The notes under the pieces were generated by a model. The model searched no databases. It saw nothing but the letters and a program-made list of their open reading frames with translations, and was not told the DNA's origin. 64,000 bases of DNA from Actinomycetes bacterium (GTDB lineage: Bacteria > Actinomycetota > Acidimicrobiia > Acidimicrobiales > Microtrichaceae): assembly GCA_024222295.1 (NCBI GenBank), contig JAAEPF010000017.1, positions 186,001-250,000 of the forward strand, written 5' to 3'. This document shows, piece by piece, positions 58,899-64,000 of the stretch. The position numbers were made by a program, and so were the translations under genes. The first letter of the stretch is position 1. Every line of letters starts with the position of its first letter.

Positions 58899-59711
58899 TC
58901 AGGGCTTGCGCACGAGGAATGGGAAGCCGAAGACCTCGAACTTGCGTGCGTTGCCCTCGCCCCCGGAGTCAGCGAATGTGTCGACCGCGTCTCCAACCCT
59001 GAAGTCAACGAAGCCGATTTCCTCCAGGAGCTTCTGCCACCCGACACGGGGCAGCCCTCCGGCTATTCAAGCGGTCCAGAGGTCGATGTCGCGCACCGCC
59101 TCTTCGGGAATGGTCTGGCCGTTGGCGATGTCGGCGAACTGGTACACGCATCCGGGTCGCAACACCCGCCAGATCTCTGTGAACCCGGCCTTCTTGTCGG
59201 CCACCAGGTTGAGGACGCCGTTGGAGATCACCACGTCGGCCCAGCCGTCGTCGACGGGCAGATCCTCCACCAGTCCCTCGCGGAACCGGACGCTGTCGAG
59301 ACCCATCGAATCGGCCACGCGGCCCGCCCGCCCGACCATCTCGGGGGTCATGTCGACACCCACGACCTCACCGGACTCGCCGACAGCCCGTGTGGCGAGG
59401 AAGCTGTCGAATCCGGCGCCGCAACCCGCGTCGAGCACCTTCTCACCCGGTTGCAGCTCACGGAGCGCGAATGGGTTGGCGACACCGGCGAACGACTCGA
59501 CCGCAGCGTCGGGAAGGGCATTCACCGCGTCCCTGTCGTACCCACACCGGGCGGCAAGATCGCGACCGGTGTGGAAATGGAACTGGTGATCGGGGTGCTC
59601 GGCCACCTCGGCGTACTTGTCGCGCACCTTGGCCCGCAGCGTGTCGGGGTCGACGGTCACCTCGTCGGGGTCTGCGGTCACATCGAAGTCGGGAACATCT
59701 GACTCGCTCAT
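58899..59711 (-). CDS. ArsM-like SAM methyltransferase, selenoprotein (TGA at 59067-59069 read as Sec)
   Basis: Read through the in-frame TGA this is a 270-residue class I methyltransferase; a conventional call stops it at residue 214. Motif I is VLDAGCGAGFDSFLATRAVG, then VVGVDMTPEMVGRAGRVADS, VISNGVLNLVADKKAGFTEI and LRPGCVYQFADI, the exact block order of arsenite methyltransferase-like enzymes. ArsM proteins next have a short block with a catalytic Cys followed by (I/L)(A/G)G; here it reads DIDLWTAUIAGGLPRVGW, with Sec215 in place of that Cys. Translation then continues to a family-typical C-terminus (LLEEIGFVDFRVGD, ending FGFPFLVRKP) and TGA at 58899. A SECIS-like hairpin follows the TGA. 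Sec machinery lies about 1.5 kb away. Substrate not proven; Sec would raise reactivity with arsenic, selenium or thiols. Confidence 0.88.
59034..59054 (-). promoter_or_regulatory. SECIS-like hairpin of the ArsM-like selenoprotein
   Basis: Beginning 12 bases after the Sec TGA, the minus strand forms CTGCC, CC, loop GTGTCG, GG, a bulged T, GGCAG: a 5-bp and a 2-bp helix separated by one bulged U, with a GU-bearing apical loop, the layout of bacterial SECIS elements such as fdhF. GGAG/CTCC can extend the base of the stem. It lies inside the coding region, as bacterial SECIS do. Confidence 0.7.
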
Positions 59712-59812
59712 GGCGCCTCATCGCTCGGCTGTAGCGAGTCTCGCGCCGATTCCGGGCGCCCACAACGGATACTGTGTCTAGCCATGAACGGGTCTGTCCG
59801 CGGGGGCGCGCG

Positions 59813-60979
59813 GTGAACAACGACGCAGCAATGAGGGACCTGGCAGCTGCACTGCCGGTACCCGAGTTCGACGACACGCCGTTCGTGCAGCCGCCGCCAT
59901 TGTCGGAGGCCACGGTCGCGATCGTGACCACCGCCGGTCTGCGCACCACCGATGGCGACGGCTGGGCTCCGGACTCCGATCCGTCCTACCGGATCATTCC
60001 CTCCGGTGAGCGCGACCTGCAGCTGTCGCACTGGTCACCCAACTTCGACCGCGTCGGCATCGCGGCCGACCTCAACGTGGCCTACCCGGCGGACCGGCTC
60101 GAAGAAATGGCGGCCGAAGGAGTGATAGGTGCGGTCGGATCGCACCATGTGTCGTTCACCGGCAACCAGGACGATTCGGTCACCAAGGTGAGACTCGAGA
60201 CAGGCCCGAGGGCAGCGGCCGAACTGAAGGCCAAGGGCATCGACGTCGTGCTGCTCACCCCGGTTTGACCGCTCTGCTCGCGCACCGTGTGTGCGCTCGC
60301 CCATGTGTTCGAGTCCGCGGGCATAGCGACGGTGTCGCTGGTGTCGGTGCTCGACGTCGCGCAGCGAACCCAGCCGCCGCGCGCCCTCTATGCGGAGTTC
60401 CCGCTCGGCCGCCCGCTCGGCAAGCCGCTGGATGCACCGTTCCAGCGACGGGTGCTGGACGCTGCATTCGGGTTGCTCGACGCACCGGAAGGGCCAGTGC
60501 TCGAGACGTTCCCCGAGGTAATCACCTCCGAGGTCGACAACGCCGTTGCCTGCTCGCTTCCGCCGCGCATGGATCCCGATCTCCCCGCCGCGGTCGACGA
60601 GGCCCGTGCTCTTCGCGACGCATGGGACCGCGCGACCGCCGCAACCGGGCGCACTTCGGTGGGCCGCACGGTCGACGCCGACGGGATTCCCGGCGTGCTC
60701 GAGGCGTTCCAGCGGATCGCGGACGGTGCCGACTGGACCGAAGCACAGCTTCCCGGCCTTCCGATCGAAGTCGTGCACGACGTGCGCTCCTACTACGAGG
60801 AGCTCTGTGTCGAACTGGTACAGGGCGCGCCCGAGGCCTGGGCTGCCGAGCACTGGTTCTACGAGGAGACCGAAGCCGGCAAGCTGGTCCAGGCGGCCCG
60901 GCGTTCCATGCGCGACAACGGCGCTCCGGGCCTGTTGTGGTTCTACATGGCGCCGGCCGAGCGCAGTCCCGACGACTGA
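59813..60979 (+). CDS. GrdB-family reductase-like selenoprotein (TGA at 60266-60268 read as Sec)
   Basis: A 388-residue protein if the TGA is read as Sec152; read normally it would appear as two unrelated short frames. The first half (VAIVTTAGLRTTDGDGW, SHWSPNFDRVGIAADLNVAYP, GVIGAVGSHHVSFTGNQDD) and the second half (FESAGIATVSLVSVLDVA) match the glycine/betaine/sarcosine/proline reductase selenoprotein B family, whose active site is a UxxC pair. Here the junction reads LLTPVUPLCSRTVCALAH, giving U-P-L-C. GTG 59813 starts it; GTG 59774 is an alternative. A hairpin follows the TGA. It is divergent from the ArsM-like selenoprotein and 76 bases upstream of tRNA-Sec. The exact substrate is unknown; a variant without partner Grd subunits is likely. 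Confidence 0.88.
60280..60296 (+). promoter_or_regulatory. SECIS-like hairpin of the GrdB-family selenoprotein
   Basis: A 6-bp stem GCGCAC (60280-60285) / GTGCGC (60291-60296) closes a 5-base loop CGTGT, 11 bases after the Sec TGA. The spacing from TGA to the loop (17 bases) and the GU in the loop fit bacterial SECIS rules. It lacks the bulged U seen in the neighbouring methyltransferase, but shares the loop sequence CCGTGT with it. Confidence 0.6.
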
Positions 60980-61055: not shown

Positions 61056-61148
61056 GGAGACGACCGAGTGCCTGGTGGCCTCCGCGGCCTTCAAAGCCGC
61101 TGGCACCCAATGCGGGTGTGGGGGGTTCGATTCCCTCCGTCTCCGCCA
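61056..61148 (+). tRNA. selC: tRNA-Sec (anticodon TCA), with encoded CCA
   Basis: Starts GGAGACG and ends CGTCTCC, G73, CCA at 61148. The anticodon arm GCGGC-CTTCAAA-GCCGC carries TCA, which reads UGA. A long variable arm has the stem GCACCC/GGGTGT, as in selenocysteine and other class II tRNAs. The T-arm is GGGGG-TTCGATT-CCCTC. I count 7 acceptor pairs and 5 T-stem pairs, 12 in total, against the 13 (8+5) of most bacterial tRNA-Sec; the eighth position is an unpaired A. The D-arm is less clear by eye (GCC-TGGT-GGC). It lies between the GrdB-like selenoprotein and selD, probably transcribed with them. Confidence 0.93.
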
Positions 61149-61169
61149 CCGCCGACGATGGGCGGGCCG

Positions 61170-62225
61170 ATGACCGCTGCGGACGCTCCCACTCCGAAGC
61201 TCACCGCCTTCTCGCGGGGAGCGGGCTGTGGCTGCAAGCTCTCCTCGGCCGAGCTGCATGCCGCCCTCGACTCGATGGCCCTGCCGTTGCCGAGTTCACC
61301 GGGCGTGCTCGTGGGCGCGGGCACATCTGACGACGCCGGTGTGTTCCGCCTCGGTGATGATCTCGCGATCGTGCAGACGCTCGACTTCTTCACGCCGATC
61401 GTGGATGACGCGCACACCTGGGGGCGCATCGCCGCCACCAACGCGCTGAGCGACGTGTGGGCGATGGGCGGGCGGCCGGTCACGGCGATGAACATCGTGG
61501 GCTGGCCCCGCGACACACTCGACTGGTCGCTGCTCGGCGAGGTGCTCGACGGCGCCGCCGTGGTGCTCGACGAAGCCGGCTGCGCGGTCGTTGGCGGCCA
61601 TTCGATCGACGACGCCGAACCGAAGTTCGGCGTGAGCGTCACCGGAGTGACCCATCCCGACCAGGTGCTGCGCAACTCGGCTGGTAGTGCCGGCGACTCG
61701 TTGGTGCTCACCAAGCCGCTGGGGGTGGGTGTTCTCACCACAGCTGTGAAGCGGGGCCTCGCCGGCGACGAGGCCGAGGACCTGGCCGTTGAGTGGATGT
61801 GCACCCCCAACGGCGACGCCAGTGAGGTTGCCGTGTCGGCGGGGCTCAAGTGCGCCACCGATGTGACCGGTTTCGGCTTCATCGGGCACCTCGGCGAAGT
61901 GCTCTCGGCCTCGGAACTGGACGCCGTGATCGAACCGGCTGCAGTGCCCGTGCTCGACGGCGTACGCGACGCTGTGGCTGCGGGCGGTGTACCCGGCGGC
62001 ACGCAGCGAAACCTCGATGACACCGAGTACGTGGACTGGGGCGGCGTCGACGAGATCGACCGGGTCGTGCTCTGCGATGCCCAGACCTCCGGTGGCCTGC
62101 TGATGGCGGTTCCGGCGGGCCGACTCGCTGATGTGACCGGATCGCTGGGCCCCGGTGCGTCCTGGGTCGTCGGTGAGCTGACGGAGCGAGCCAGGCCTGG
62201 TCGATCAGAAGTGCGGTTCCGGTGA
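61170..62225 (+). CDS. selD: Selenophosphate synthase
   Basis: A 351-residue enzyme that makes selenophosphate from selenide and ATP, the selenium donor for Sec-tRNA. SRGAGCGCKLSSAEL is the N-terminal catalytic loop; the first Cys and the Lys are the essential residues, here Cys, so SelD is not itself a selenoprotein. VGAGTSDDAGVFRLGDDLAIVQTLDFFTPIVDD carries the Mg/ATP Asp residues, and the later VGGHSIDDAEPKFGVSVTG is the second AIRS/PurM domain. ATG 61170 has GGGCGGG three bases before it; ATG 61158 is less likely. The stop overlaps the selA GTG by 4 bases (GTGA). Confidence 0.96.
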   Translation: MTAADAPTPKLTAFSRGAGCGCKLSSAELHAALDSMALPLPSSPGVLVGAGTSDDAGVFRLGDDLAIVQTLDFFTPIVDDAHTWGRIAATNALSDVWAMGGRPVTAMNIVGWPRDTLDWSLLGEVLDGAAVVLDEAGCAVVGGHSIDDAEPKFGVSVTGVTHPDQVLRNSAGSAGDSLVLTKPLGVGVLTTAVKRGLAGDEAEDLAVEWMCTPNGDASEVAVSAGLKCATDVTGFGFIGHLGEVLSASELDAVIEPAAVPVLDGVRDAVAAGGVPGGTQRNLDDTEYVDWGGVDEIDRVVLCDAQTSGGLLMAVPAGRLADVTGSLGPGASWVVGELTERARPGRSEVRFR

Positions 62226-63610
62226 GTGACATCACGCAGCCGCGGGACCTGCCTCAGGTGGACGTGCTCGCACGCAGTGCCGATGGGCTCGCTCCGGCTC
62301 CGGTGGTGCGTACCGAGGCGCGGCGCATCATCGACGACGCCCGCGAGCACCTGGCAACAGCATCGACCACCACCGAGGCGCTGCAAAGGGCCCTTGCGGA
62401 TGCGGTCCTCGCTCGCGGGCCGCTGCGACCCGTGGTCAACGCCACCGGTGTGATGCTTCACACCAACCTGGGGCGCGCGCCGCTGGCCCCGTTGCAGGAG
62501 AGCGACTCGGGGCTCGCCACGGTGCCAATCGAGATGGACCTGTCGGGTGGCCGCCGCGCGGGGCGCCTCGGCGGTCTCGAAGCCGACATCAGCGAACTCG
62601 CCGGTGCCGAGTCGGCTCTGGTCGTGAACAACAACGCTGGGGCCGTCCTACTGGCACTGACAGCCCTCGCTCGCGGAGGTGAAGTTGTCGTATCGCGGGG
62701 TCAGCTGGTCGAGATCGGTGGTTCGTTCCGCGTGCCCGACATCGTCAGCCAGGGCGGAGCCGTCATGCGCGAGGTCGGCACCACCAACCGCACACACCTG
62801 GCCGACTACCGCTCCGCGATCGGTGACGACACCCAGGTGCTGCTAGAGGTCCACCCGTCCAACTTCGCGCAGCTCGGCTTCGTGAAGTCGGTGCCCACGC
62901 GCGACCTGGCCAAGCTGGCCGACAGTCATGGCTTGCACATGGTTCACGACATCGGCTCGGGCCTGGTCGACGCGCACACCCCCTGGTTGGACGGCGCTCC
63001 GCCCGACTTCCTTCGCGACGAGCCGGCGGCGCGGCAGTCGATCGAGGCCGGTGCACACGTCGTGACCTTCAGCGGCGACAAGCTCCTGGGCGGCCCACAG
63101 GCAGGCATCCTCGTTGGTGAGAAGGCTCGCATGGAGCGGATCCGGCGCCACCCACTGGCCAGGGCGCTGCGCTACGACAAGCTGCGCGCCGCGCAGTTGC
63201 ACGCCGCGGTGCGTGCACATCTCGACCGCACCGCCGCCGAATCAGTGCCGTTCTGGCAGATGGCCACAGCCGCGCCGGCTGACCTGGAGGCTCGGGCGGC
63301 AGCGTTGGTGGCCCGGTTGCAGCCGACCGCGGCCGAGGTGGTGCAGTTCGACGACTCCGCCGGGGCCGGCTCCGCTGCCAACCGACCGATCGACGGCCGG
63401 GCGGTGGCGTTGTCGGTCCATGACCCCCGGGCCGTTGCGGCCGCCCTGCGCGCAGGGCCGACACCGGTGCTGGCTGTCGTGCGCTCGGGCACGGTGCAGT
63501 TGTCCATGCGCACCATCGACCCTGCGACGGATGAGCTCGTGGCCGAGGCTGTGCTCCACGCCGTCGCCAGCCCTGTCGGCGGCAGCCCTGTCGGCGGGAG
63601 AACCGATTGA
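62222..63610 (+). CDS. selA: L-seryl-tRNA(Sec) selenium transferase
   Basis: A 462-residue PLP enzyme that converts Ser-tRNA-Sec to Sec-tRNA-Sec. The N-terminal tRNA-binding region includes PVVNATGVMLHTNLGRAPLA, a hallmark of SelA. The PLP lysine lies in VVTFSGDKLLGGPQAGILVG and the aspartate/glycine helix in HMVHDIGSGLVD. The ends match the family. GTG 62222 start inside selD; the TGA is overlapped by the TTG of selB by 3 bases, so selD-selA-selB are translationally coupled. Confidence 0.96.
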   Translation: MSDITQPRDLPQVDVLARSADGLAPAPVVRTEARRIIDDAREHLATASTTTEALQRALADAVLARGPLRPVVNATGVMLHTNLGRAPLAPLQESDSGLATVPIEMDLSGGRRAGRLGGLEADISELAGAESALVVNNNAGAVLLALTALARGGEVVVSRGQLVEIGGSFRVPDIVSQGGAVMREVGTTNRTHLADYRSAIGDDTQVLLEVHPSNFAQLGFVKSVPTRDLAKLADSHGLHMVHDIGSGLVDAHTPWLDGAPPDFLRDEPAARQSIEAGAHVVTFSGDKLLGGPQAGILVGEKARMERIRRHPLARALRYDKLRAAQLHAAVRAHLDRTAAESVPFWQMATAAPADLEARAAALVARLQPTAAEVVQFDDSAGAGSAANRPIDGRAVALSVHDPRAVAAALRAGPTPVLAVVRSGTVQLSMRTIDPATDELVAEAVLHAVASPVGGSPVGGRTD

Positions 63611-64000
63611 TCGTCGCCACGGCGGGCCACGTCGACCACGGCAAGTCCACGCTCGTGCGCCTGCTCACGGGCATCGACCCGGACCGGTGGCAGGAGGAGA
63701 AGCGCCGGGGCCTCACCATCGACCTGGGGTTCGCGTCCATGGAGATGGAGATCCCCGGCGGACCGTCCGTGCTGGGATTCGTGGACGTGCCCGGTCATCG
63801 CCGCTTCGTGCCGAACATGCTGGCGGGCTGCGGCTCGGTTGACATGGCGTTGCTGGTGGTGTCGGCCCGCGAAGGCTGGATGCCGCAGACCGAGGAGCAC
63901 CTGGCGATCCTCGACCTTCTCGGCGTGCACTCGGCCGTGGTGGCAATCACCCATGCCGACACCGTCGATCCCGACACGGTGGAGCTGGCCAAGCTCGAGG
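63607..64000 (+). CDS. selB: Selenocysteine-specific elongation factor SelB (C-terminus outside window)
   Basis: The first 131 residues of the GTPase that carries Sec-tRNA to the ribosome and reads the SECIS. TTG 63607 gives IVATAGHVDHGKSTLVRLLTG (G1/P-loop), DRWQEEKRRGLTIDLGFA (switch 1), FVDVPGHRRFVPNMLAG (switch 2) and THAD, the G4 box, where the family usually has TKAD or NKAD. The SelB-specific EEKRRGLTIDLGF is clear. The domain 4 winged helices that bind the SECIS lie beyond the window. Confidence 0.96.
   Translation, partial: MIVATAGHVDHGKSTLVRLLTGIDPDRWQEEKRRGLTIDLGFASMEMEIPGGPSVLGFVDVPGHRRFVPNMLAGCGSVDMALLVVSAREGWMPQTEEHLAILDLLGVHSAVVAITHADTVDPDTVELAKLE

Follow-up and report, generated by a model that had tools for sequence, protein, structure and literature searches.

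A selenocysteine-containing methyltransferase of the ArsM superfamily and its possible role in the methylation of small sulfur or selenium species

The gene at positions 58899–59711 (minus strand) of the window, by which the whole analysed stretch of 64 000 nucleotides is meant, encodes a selenocysteine-containing, ArsM-like, SAM-dependent methyltransferase of 270 amino acids with selenocysteine (Sec) as residue 215, as assigned from the open reading frame, Pfam, NCBIfam, and an AlphaFold model. Judged from sequence comparisons, it is a real selenoprotein gene of the ArsM superfamily, the product of which most likely methylates small sulfur or selenium species held on the selenolate; a probability of about one half is given to this reading. 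We infer the substrate class from relatives only, and arsenite is regarded as a less likely substrate than small sulfur or selenium species. The gene represents a recoded active site that is cut off by ordinary gene calls.

When the open reading frame was re-read on the minus strand, the ATG was located at 59711, the TGA of codon 215 at 59069–59067, and, 55 codons further on, a TGA stop at 58901–58899. A preceding sequence-only reading had given the coordinates, the position of the TGA, the 55-codon continuation, and the normal stop exactly, and the truncation that it had expected of ordinary annotation was reproduced by a gene call ending after residue 214. The read-through protein is a class I methyltransferase (Pfam Methyltransf_31, 98 bits). 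The AlphaFold model (C modelled in place of U) had a pLDDT of 88; the nine best PDB matches found for it by Foldseek are ArsM crystal structures, the four best chains giving E values of 1e-17 to 2e-16 and TM scores (by query) of 0.66–0.69. An ArsM-like class I SAM methyltransferase fold was recognized in this way by Pfam, model, and Foldseek alike. The best NCBIfam matches are ArsM-type models, every one of them below its cut-off, such as NF041537 (217 bits, cut-off 510) and PRK11873 (206.3 bits, cut-off 263, residues 22–243). Upon alignment to 5evj, 4fr0, and 5eg5, the UGA codon (59067–59069, minus strand; LWTA-U-IAGG) was found to coincide with the third catalytic Cys of ArsM.

This column was followed through the relatives. 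The sequence-only reading, which had placed Sec at a conserved ArsM Cys, had asked for Cys or Sec in this column among homologues, and this was found: across 35 homologous loci, that of the window included, the column holds TGA in 15 and Cys in 20. The findings that it had named as refuting were not encountered, since homologues carry Cys there, the alignment to the family extends past the TGA, and the TGA itself is found repeatedly. At 80 further genome loci an in-frame stop was present in the column in 40 cases and Cys in 39. In the alignment of 121 rows, with an in-frame stop counted as Sec, there are 64 Sec, 56 Cys, and 1 Trp rows (stop or Cys in 120 of 121). An in-frame UGA aligned with Cys in homologues, a criterion for selenoproteins, is therefore seen in the window gene. 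The Sec genes used for further counts number 55 (15 from the class and family loci, 40 from the further genome loci) and come from many phyla; some are close kin, and L083 and L084 are nearly identical. The codon is TGA in 54 of them and TAG in the remaining one, from Modestobacter sp. DSM 44400 (L043, 9616–9618). The tRNA-Sec of the latter organism (L125; RF01852, 66.9 bits) has the anticodon CTA, and UAG-encoded Sec with a tRNA-Sec(CUA) has been documented for other genes in Geodermatophilaceae (PMC5330540). ARAGORN labels this Modestobacter tRNA-Sec (CUA) as tRNA-Pyl.

The distribution of tRNA-Sec was determined with RF01852 at 1e-8 in combination with ARAGORN. Near its cut-off, RF01852 also matches tRNA-Ser in GC-rich genomes, so raw tallies are too high and the anticodon has to be checked: matches above the gathering cut-off in G048, G246, and Glycomyces (G275), as well as the second ones of G223 and G274, are tRNA-Ser according to ARAGORN (L127, L128, L148, L149, and L151). 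A true tRNA-Sec was found in 14 of the 15 genomes with a Sec gene read, and in two of the eight genomes with a Cys clade gene only (G001 and G115); G246 and G243 are left out of this tally. The exception among the former, G064 (L020), has the in-frame TGA and no tRNA-Sec at 1e-8 in a genome that is 95% complete, for which a missing contig, a diverged tRNA, or a recent loss may account. G246, with no confirmed tRNA-Sec, has a Cys gene and another match that contains one TGA.

Several side observations were made on individual rows. The single Trp occurs in a planctomycete gene (L164, 966–1706), which may be either a non-catalytic paralogue or the outcome of a UGA-to-UGG change. An extra internal TAA or TAG is present in L070 and L077. 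Four planctomycete genes (L157, L158, L160, and L172) were counted with two TGA each; in L158 the second lies in the tail and is followed by an open stretch, and in the other three it seems to be a plain stop. In the class and family set, all eight Cys rows (L009, L010, L011, L012, L024, L025, L027, and L029) have Cys103 and most have Cys at 207 and 226, and no Sec row has these extra residues, so that the Cys rows look, by sequence, as if several thiols had replaced one selenol. The Cys103 pattern is not general, the counts at the genome loci being 10 of 41 Sec rows (window counted) and two of ten clade Cys rows.

A bacterial SECIS hairpin, CUGCCCC-GUGUCG-GG(U)GGCAG with a bulged U, lies at 59034–59054 (minus strand), 15–35 nt after the first base of the UGA. 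The hairpin described in the sequence-only reading, with its bulged U and GU in the loop, does exist as the minimum free energy fold, but on its own it does not exceed chance (z=−0.87; 36 of 200 shuffles were equally good) and was rejected as sole evidence for a SECIS element; it is its preservation across relatives that makes it convincing. The window belongs to a subgroup with a shifted, bulged-U stem. With the register-matched stem defined as nucleotides 13–19/25–31 from the first base of the codon, 350 of 385 cells (90.9%) are paired across the 55 Sec genes, compared with 120 of 273 in equal register in 39 Cys homologues (10 clade, 29 canonical ArsM) and 28–44% when the stem partner is slid by 1–3 columns. 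The number of double-changed stem cells in the Sec genes was 44 (14.5 in shuffles) and the stem covariation 0.403 (0.210 in shuffles), neither value being reached in any of 500 shuffles; two coarser measures stayed within the shuffle range (pairs with double change, 93/500; pair types, 115/500). The mean 26-nt folding energy of 15 Sec genes has a minimum of −11.4 kcal mol−1 at +6 to +38, and nine clade Cys cousins, taken from the class searches and used in this comparison only, gave −6.0 with no such minimum. A conserved and covarying SECIS thus follows the UGA.

A reading of the TGA as a true stop or as the result of a sequencing error, with the tail as a relic, is very improbable. The failure of the window hairpin alone to surpass shuffles would agree with such a reading; an in-frame stop at one position in 55 genes of many phyla, a conserved tail, the covarying SECIS, and the UAG/CUA pair speak against it, and sequencing error, true stop, and pseudogene were all discarded in view of the recurrence in 15 of 35 loci, the conserved tail, and the covariation. 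Decoding of UGA 215 as Sec is strongly supported by four lines of sequence evidence, namely the Sec/Cys column, the covarying hairpin, the UAG/CUA pair of Modestobacter, and the distribution of tRNA-Sec, and the placement of Sec at the conserved ArsM Cys by the sequence-only reading holds.

The machinery for this decoding is encoded nearby on the plus strand: tRNA-Sec with anticodon UCA (61056–61148; ARAGORN; RF01852, 66 bits), selD for a selenide water dikinase in the Cys form (61167–62225, the start being approximate because its codon was chosen; TIGR00476, 375 bits, cut-off 125), selA for selenocysteine synthase (62222–63610; TIGR00474, 419.5 bits, cut-off 268), and the 5′ part of selB, which runs off the window (63607–64000; TIGR00475, 174.6 bits, model positions 1–122 of 581). 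With 131 residues of SelB encoded in the window, the score stays under the cut-off of 242. The window genome accordingly has tRNA-Sec, SelA, SelB, and SelD, with SelB seen from its 5′ part only. Measured from the methyltransferase start, tRNA-Sec (1.3 kb) and selA (about 2.5 kb) are as close as the 2.5 kb previously given for tRNA-Sec and selDAB, whereas selB is 3.9 kb away. Judged by comparison, UGA 215 is read as Sec by this adjacent set of tRNA-Sec, SelA, SelB, and SelD, guided by the SECIS that follows it.

A tree of the 121 rows was calculated by a quick method with SH-aLRT support; L030, L031, L076, L087, L100, L110, and L112 (partial, frameshifted, or short) were omitted, and the window stands for L001. 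The window clade of 84 rows (64 Sec and 20 others) is separated from 37 canonical ArsM rows by one branch (SH-aLRT 99), and there is no Sec among these 37. A minimum of six Sec/Cys changes is required over the tree, five of them inside the clade, which comprises members of Actinomycetota, Proteobacteria, Chloroflexi, Acidobacteria, Planctomycetes, and others. The column of Cys174 is Gly in all 84 clade rows and Cys in all 37 canonical rows, and that of Cys72 is V, T, M, or I in the former and again Cys in the latter; in the window these are Gly165 (59217–59219, minus strand; SNGVLNL vs. SNCVINL) and Val77 (59481–59483, minus strand; GVANPF vs. GCGNP). None of the 64 Sec rows has Cys at columns 77 and 165. 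The alignment shows that the clade has lost the other two arsenic-binding cysteines and has kept one position as Sec or Cys. A motif common in the clade, FHFHTGR (residues 44–50; 59562–59582, minus strand), aligns with a region in which many canonical ArsM rows have Cys-rich stretches; it is absent in the rows read from the planctomycete branch, which is distant (about 43% identity). Searches of plasmids gave 47 related records, all below 60% identity, the usual annotations among the 20 listed being methyltransferase domain-containing protein and arsenite methyltransferase; viral contigs gave one weak match (35%).

These features bear on whether the protein is a Sec-dependent arsenite (or methylarsenite) methyltransferase, in which Sec, perhaps with the HxH motif of the clade, would bind As(III) for methylation by SAM. 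Such a function is rather unlikely. In sequence and fold the window protein is closest to ArsM (PRK11873, 206 bits), two of the three fusion models of NCBIfam bear the name of arsenite methyltransferase selenoproteins, and ArsR-type regulators adjoin some relatives. As(III) is a substrate of the single-Cys ArsM from Thermus (TtArsM), for which docking has suggested two His as ligands (PMC8649762), and arsenic activity without the two cysteines is conceivable because of this enzyme. Against these points, none of the 84 clade rows has either of the other two arsenic-binding cysteines, the planctomycete rows lack the HxH motif, and the fusions to MddA and the sulfur genes described below would have no obvious place. 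The requirement of at least three of the four conserved cysteines 44, 72, 174, and 224 (PMC5552862) contrasts with at most position 224, as Sec, in the window protein, the first 55 residues of which contain no Cys. The curated cut-off of PRK11873/NF008823 (263 bits) is missed, and neither Acr3 (PF01758) nor ArsB (PF02040) was matched at E 0.001 in the window genome (97% complete), both models giving matches in control genomes. The arsenic-methyltransferase reading of the sequence appears weak, and the gene should not be filed under this name, since the two cysteines are lost throughout the clade, the PRK11873 cut-off is missed, and the evidence from relatives favours sulfur or selenium chemistry. 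Of the earlier description as an ArsM-like enzyme with Sec, the fold and the Sec at the third Cys are retained; the arsenic label, with Cys72 and Cys174 lost and 206 bits against 263, is not.

Sec-containing ArsM-like enzymes as such are already known, and the gene is no novelty in this respect. An ocean metagenome survey from 2008 reported Sec arsenite methyltransferases (8 Sec and 245 Cys sequences; PMC2398784), a review from 2022 places them under the heading "experimentally verified", citing Fomenko 2007 (PMC9312934), a review from 2026 gives the motif UxxG (PMC13188914), and three NCBIfam models describe fusions. The group of PRK11873/NF008823, for which WP_011987699.1 is cited, resembles the window protein in being an ArsM-like methyltransferase with Sec (UxxG there, UIAG in the window), but the window protein falls below its cut-off (206 vs. 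263). The methyltransferase parts of NF041537 (ArsM_AhpD_UU), NF041536 (ArsM_DUF2284_UU), and NF047649 (MTase_UXPK_star) match residues 21–241 with 189–217 bits; the window protein differs in standing alone with one Sec and in lying far below the cut-offs (510, 575, and 460, respectively). A second Sec-bearing domain was not found in its 270 amino acids, which contain one in-frame TGA before the stop. ArsM/AS3MT (CmArsM, 4fr0; CrArsM, 5evj) has the same fold and the same position of the third Cys, but carries Cys72 and Cys174 in place of Val and Gly, in chains of 300–387 residues as compared with 270. The Mdd S-methyltransferases for H2S and methanethiol (MddA, MddH, MddM1, and MddM2) are alike in the chemistry proposed here, and some planctomycete relatives are fused or coupled to MddA; they differ in kind, MddA being a membrane enzyme, MddM1 a UbiG-type protein of 210 aa, and MddM2 a UbiE-type protein of 204 aa. 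Of 45 families, 25 are listed for the window protein, and NF045656 (MddA) is not one of them. In PMC12904073, no "selen-" or "arsen-" words occur in the main text. A link between MddA and selenoproteins was not found in the literature searched (most subscription papers lying outside it) or in the titles listed for selenoprotein and methanethiol, so that it is the sulfur/selenium reading of the clade that may be new.

The flanks of 50 clade loci were scanned for sulfur genes in 150 of 264 called ORFs (86+64), mainly short or more distant ORFs and locus L076 being left out; genes were called by an ORF heuristic, and the loci are related, so the counts are not independent. Rhodanese was found in 8/86 and 3/64 (11/150), OsmC in 3/86 and 3/64, ArsR-type HTH in 7/86, and DsrE in 5/86; most of the ORFs match none of the sulfur families, and the gene content is mixed. 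Around 29 canonical ArsM loci (111 flank ORFs), ArsR-type HTH occurred eight times and ArsB and SBF once each, and rhodanese, DsrE, and OsmC, which lie outside the 25 families listed, each account for at most 1 of 111. Methyltransferase domains were matched by 5/86 clade-flank ORFs, some of which may be pieces of the methyltransferase itself. A co-directional arrangement of ArsR-rhodanese regulator, Sec methyltransferase, metallo-β-lactamase-rhodanese, and MFS transporter was present in L044 (Acidimicrobiia, the class of the window) and L072 (Rubrobacter), the regulator of L072 being assigned by clustering with that of L044. Modestobacter L043 shares the metallo-β-lactamase/rhodanese and MFS genes and has an OsmC gene in addition; its DsrE neighbour rests on clustering, as the ORF submitted to Pfam from there gave no match.

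In planctomycetes the association is with MddA, methanethiol S-methyltransferase. In L091 the Sec methyltransferase is fused to a complete MddA (NF045656, 348.8 bits, cut-off 270). MddA is likewise fused in L155 (342.9 bits) and L156 (344.3 bits), both found in a search of 198 genomes of the planctomycete class, which also gave L170 and L171, in which the methyltransferase stop and the MddA start overlap in TAATG (MddA, 324.1 and 343.3 bits); in L174, broken MddA pieces lie beside the methyltransferase. The planctomycete clade genes read have TGA in 12 of 13 cases (Trp in L164), and with L091 included 3 of 14 are fused and 2 of 14 coupled to MddA, no MddA being seen in the flanks available for the others. 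Among the clade loci compared before this search, only L091 has MddA beside it. Within the class of the window, none of the 247 genomes (the window's included) gave an MddA match at 1e-20, the same search matching in G279, and MddA was discarded as a partner there. Fusion or translational coupling usually denotes consecutive steps. The planctomycete partner step could therefore produce methanethiol or methylselenol, although a partner making methanethiol is not strictly required, because MddA itself is said to act on H2S as well: in the description given for MddA and MddH, both H2S and methanethiol are methylated, with dimethyl sulfide as the product (PMC12904073). In the class of the window, in the 247 genomes of which MddA was not found, the product would be set free or dealt with in some other way.

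The following course is proposed for the methylation of small sulfur or selenium species. The selenolate would be placed beside the SAM methyl group, as Cys224 is in ArsM, and would capture a soft species such as sulfide, persulfide, sulfane sulfur, or selenide. SAM would then methylate the captured sulfur or selenium atom, and methanethiol or methylselenol (or a mixed selenenyl sulfide) would leave by exchange with a thiol. In planctomycetes, the fused or coupled MddA would add a second methyl group to give dimethyl sulfide or selenide. If the selenol has to be reset, the fusion of the known double selenoproteins to redox-type domains would be in keeping with this. Those fusions (AhpD, DUF2284, and UXPK-star; PMC13188914), together with OsmC and DsrE neighbours, which belong to thiol-redox or sulfur-relay families, are also what could be expected if the substrate were an organic thiol, an organic selenol, or a protein partner, and Sec acted as a redox partner instead of carrying the atom to be methylated. 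We consider that function improbable: Sec occupies the ArsM column, which in ArsM structures adjoins the methyl-accepting site, and MddA acts on small volatile thiols (PMC12904073).

With respect to the clade as a whole, it is suggested tentatively, at somewhat less than even odds, that its members are widespread Sec-dependent chalcogenide methyltransferases that form methanethiol or methylselenol from sulfide, persulfide, or selenide, thereby starting a route to dimethyl sulfide or selenide that ends with MddA in planctomycetes, and that they are misnamed as arsenite methyltransferases and truncated in ordinary annotation. If the methylation of sulfur or selenium species is correct, selenium-using bacteria of many phyla own an overlooked enzyme for volatile methylated sulfur or selenium compounds, and a group now known as arsenite methyltransferases should receive another name; with the MddA fusions, this can be put to a direct test.

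The window methyltransferase is flanked by a hydrolase-like ORF, a DUF2237 gene, and a PrdB-like selenoprotein gene. For the hydrolase and DUF2237 neighbours, no match at 1e-20 was obtained outside the window genome in the loci compared, most class loci having a flank of 1.5 kb. The Polyketide_cyc2 gene of the window is matched at 65% by a gene in L066 that lies about 2.6 kb away from the methyltransferase of that locus. The divergent PrdB/GrdB-like neighbour, a second selenoprotein (59774–60979, plus strand; TGA at 60266–60268; UxxC in LLTPVUPLC; TIGR04483, 111.7 bits, below cut-off), was rejected as a conserved partner, as among the loci compared it adjoins the methyltransferase in the window genome only, a weak match in L071 being about 4 kb off. 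Relatives of it occur in 27 of 119 class genomes at 1e-20, and each of the 15 other matches better than 1e-100 contains one or more in-frame TGA codons (two in six cases), with an additional TAG in one.
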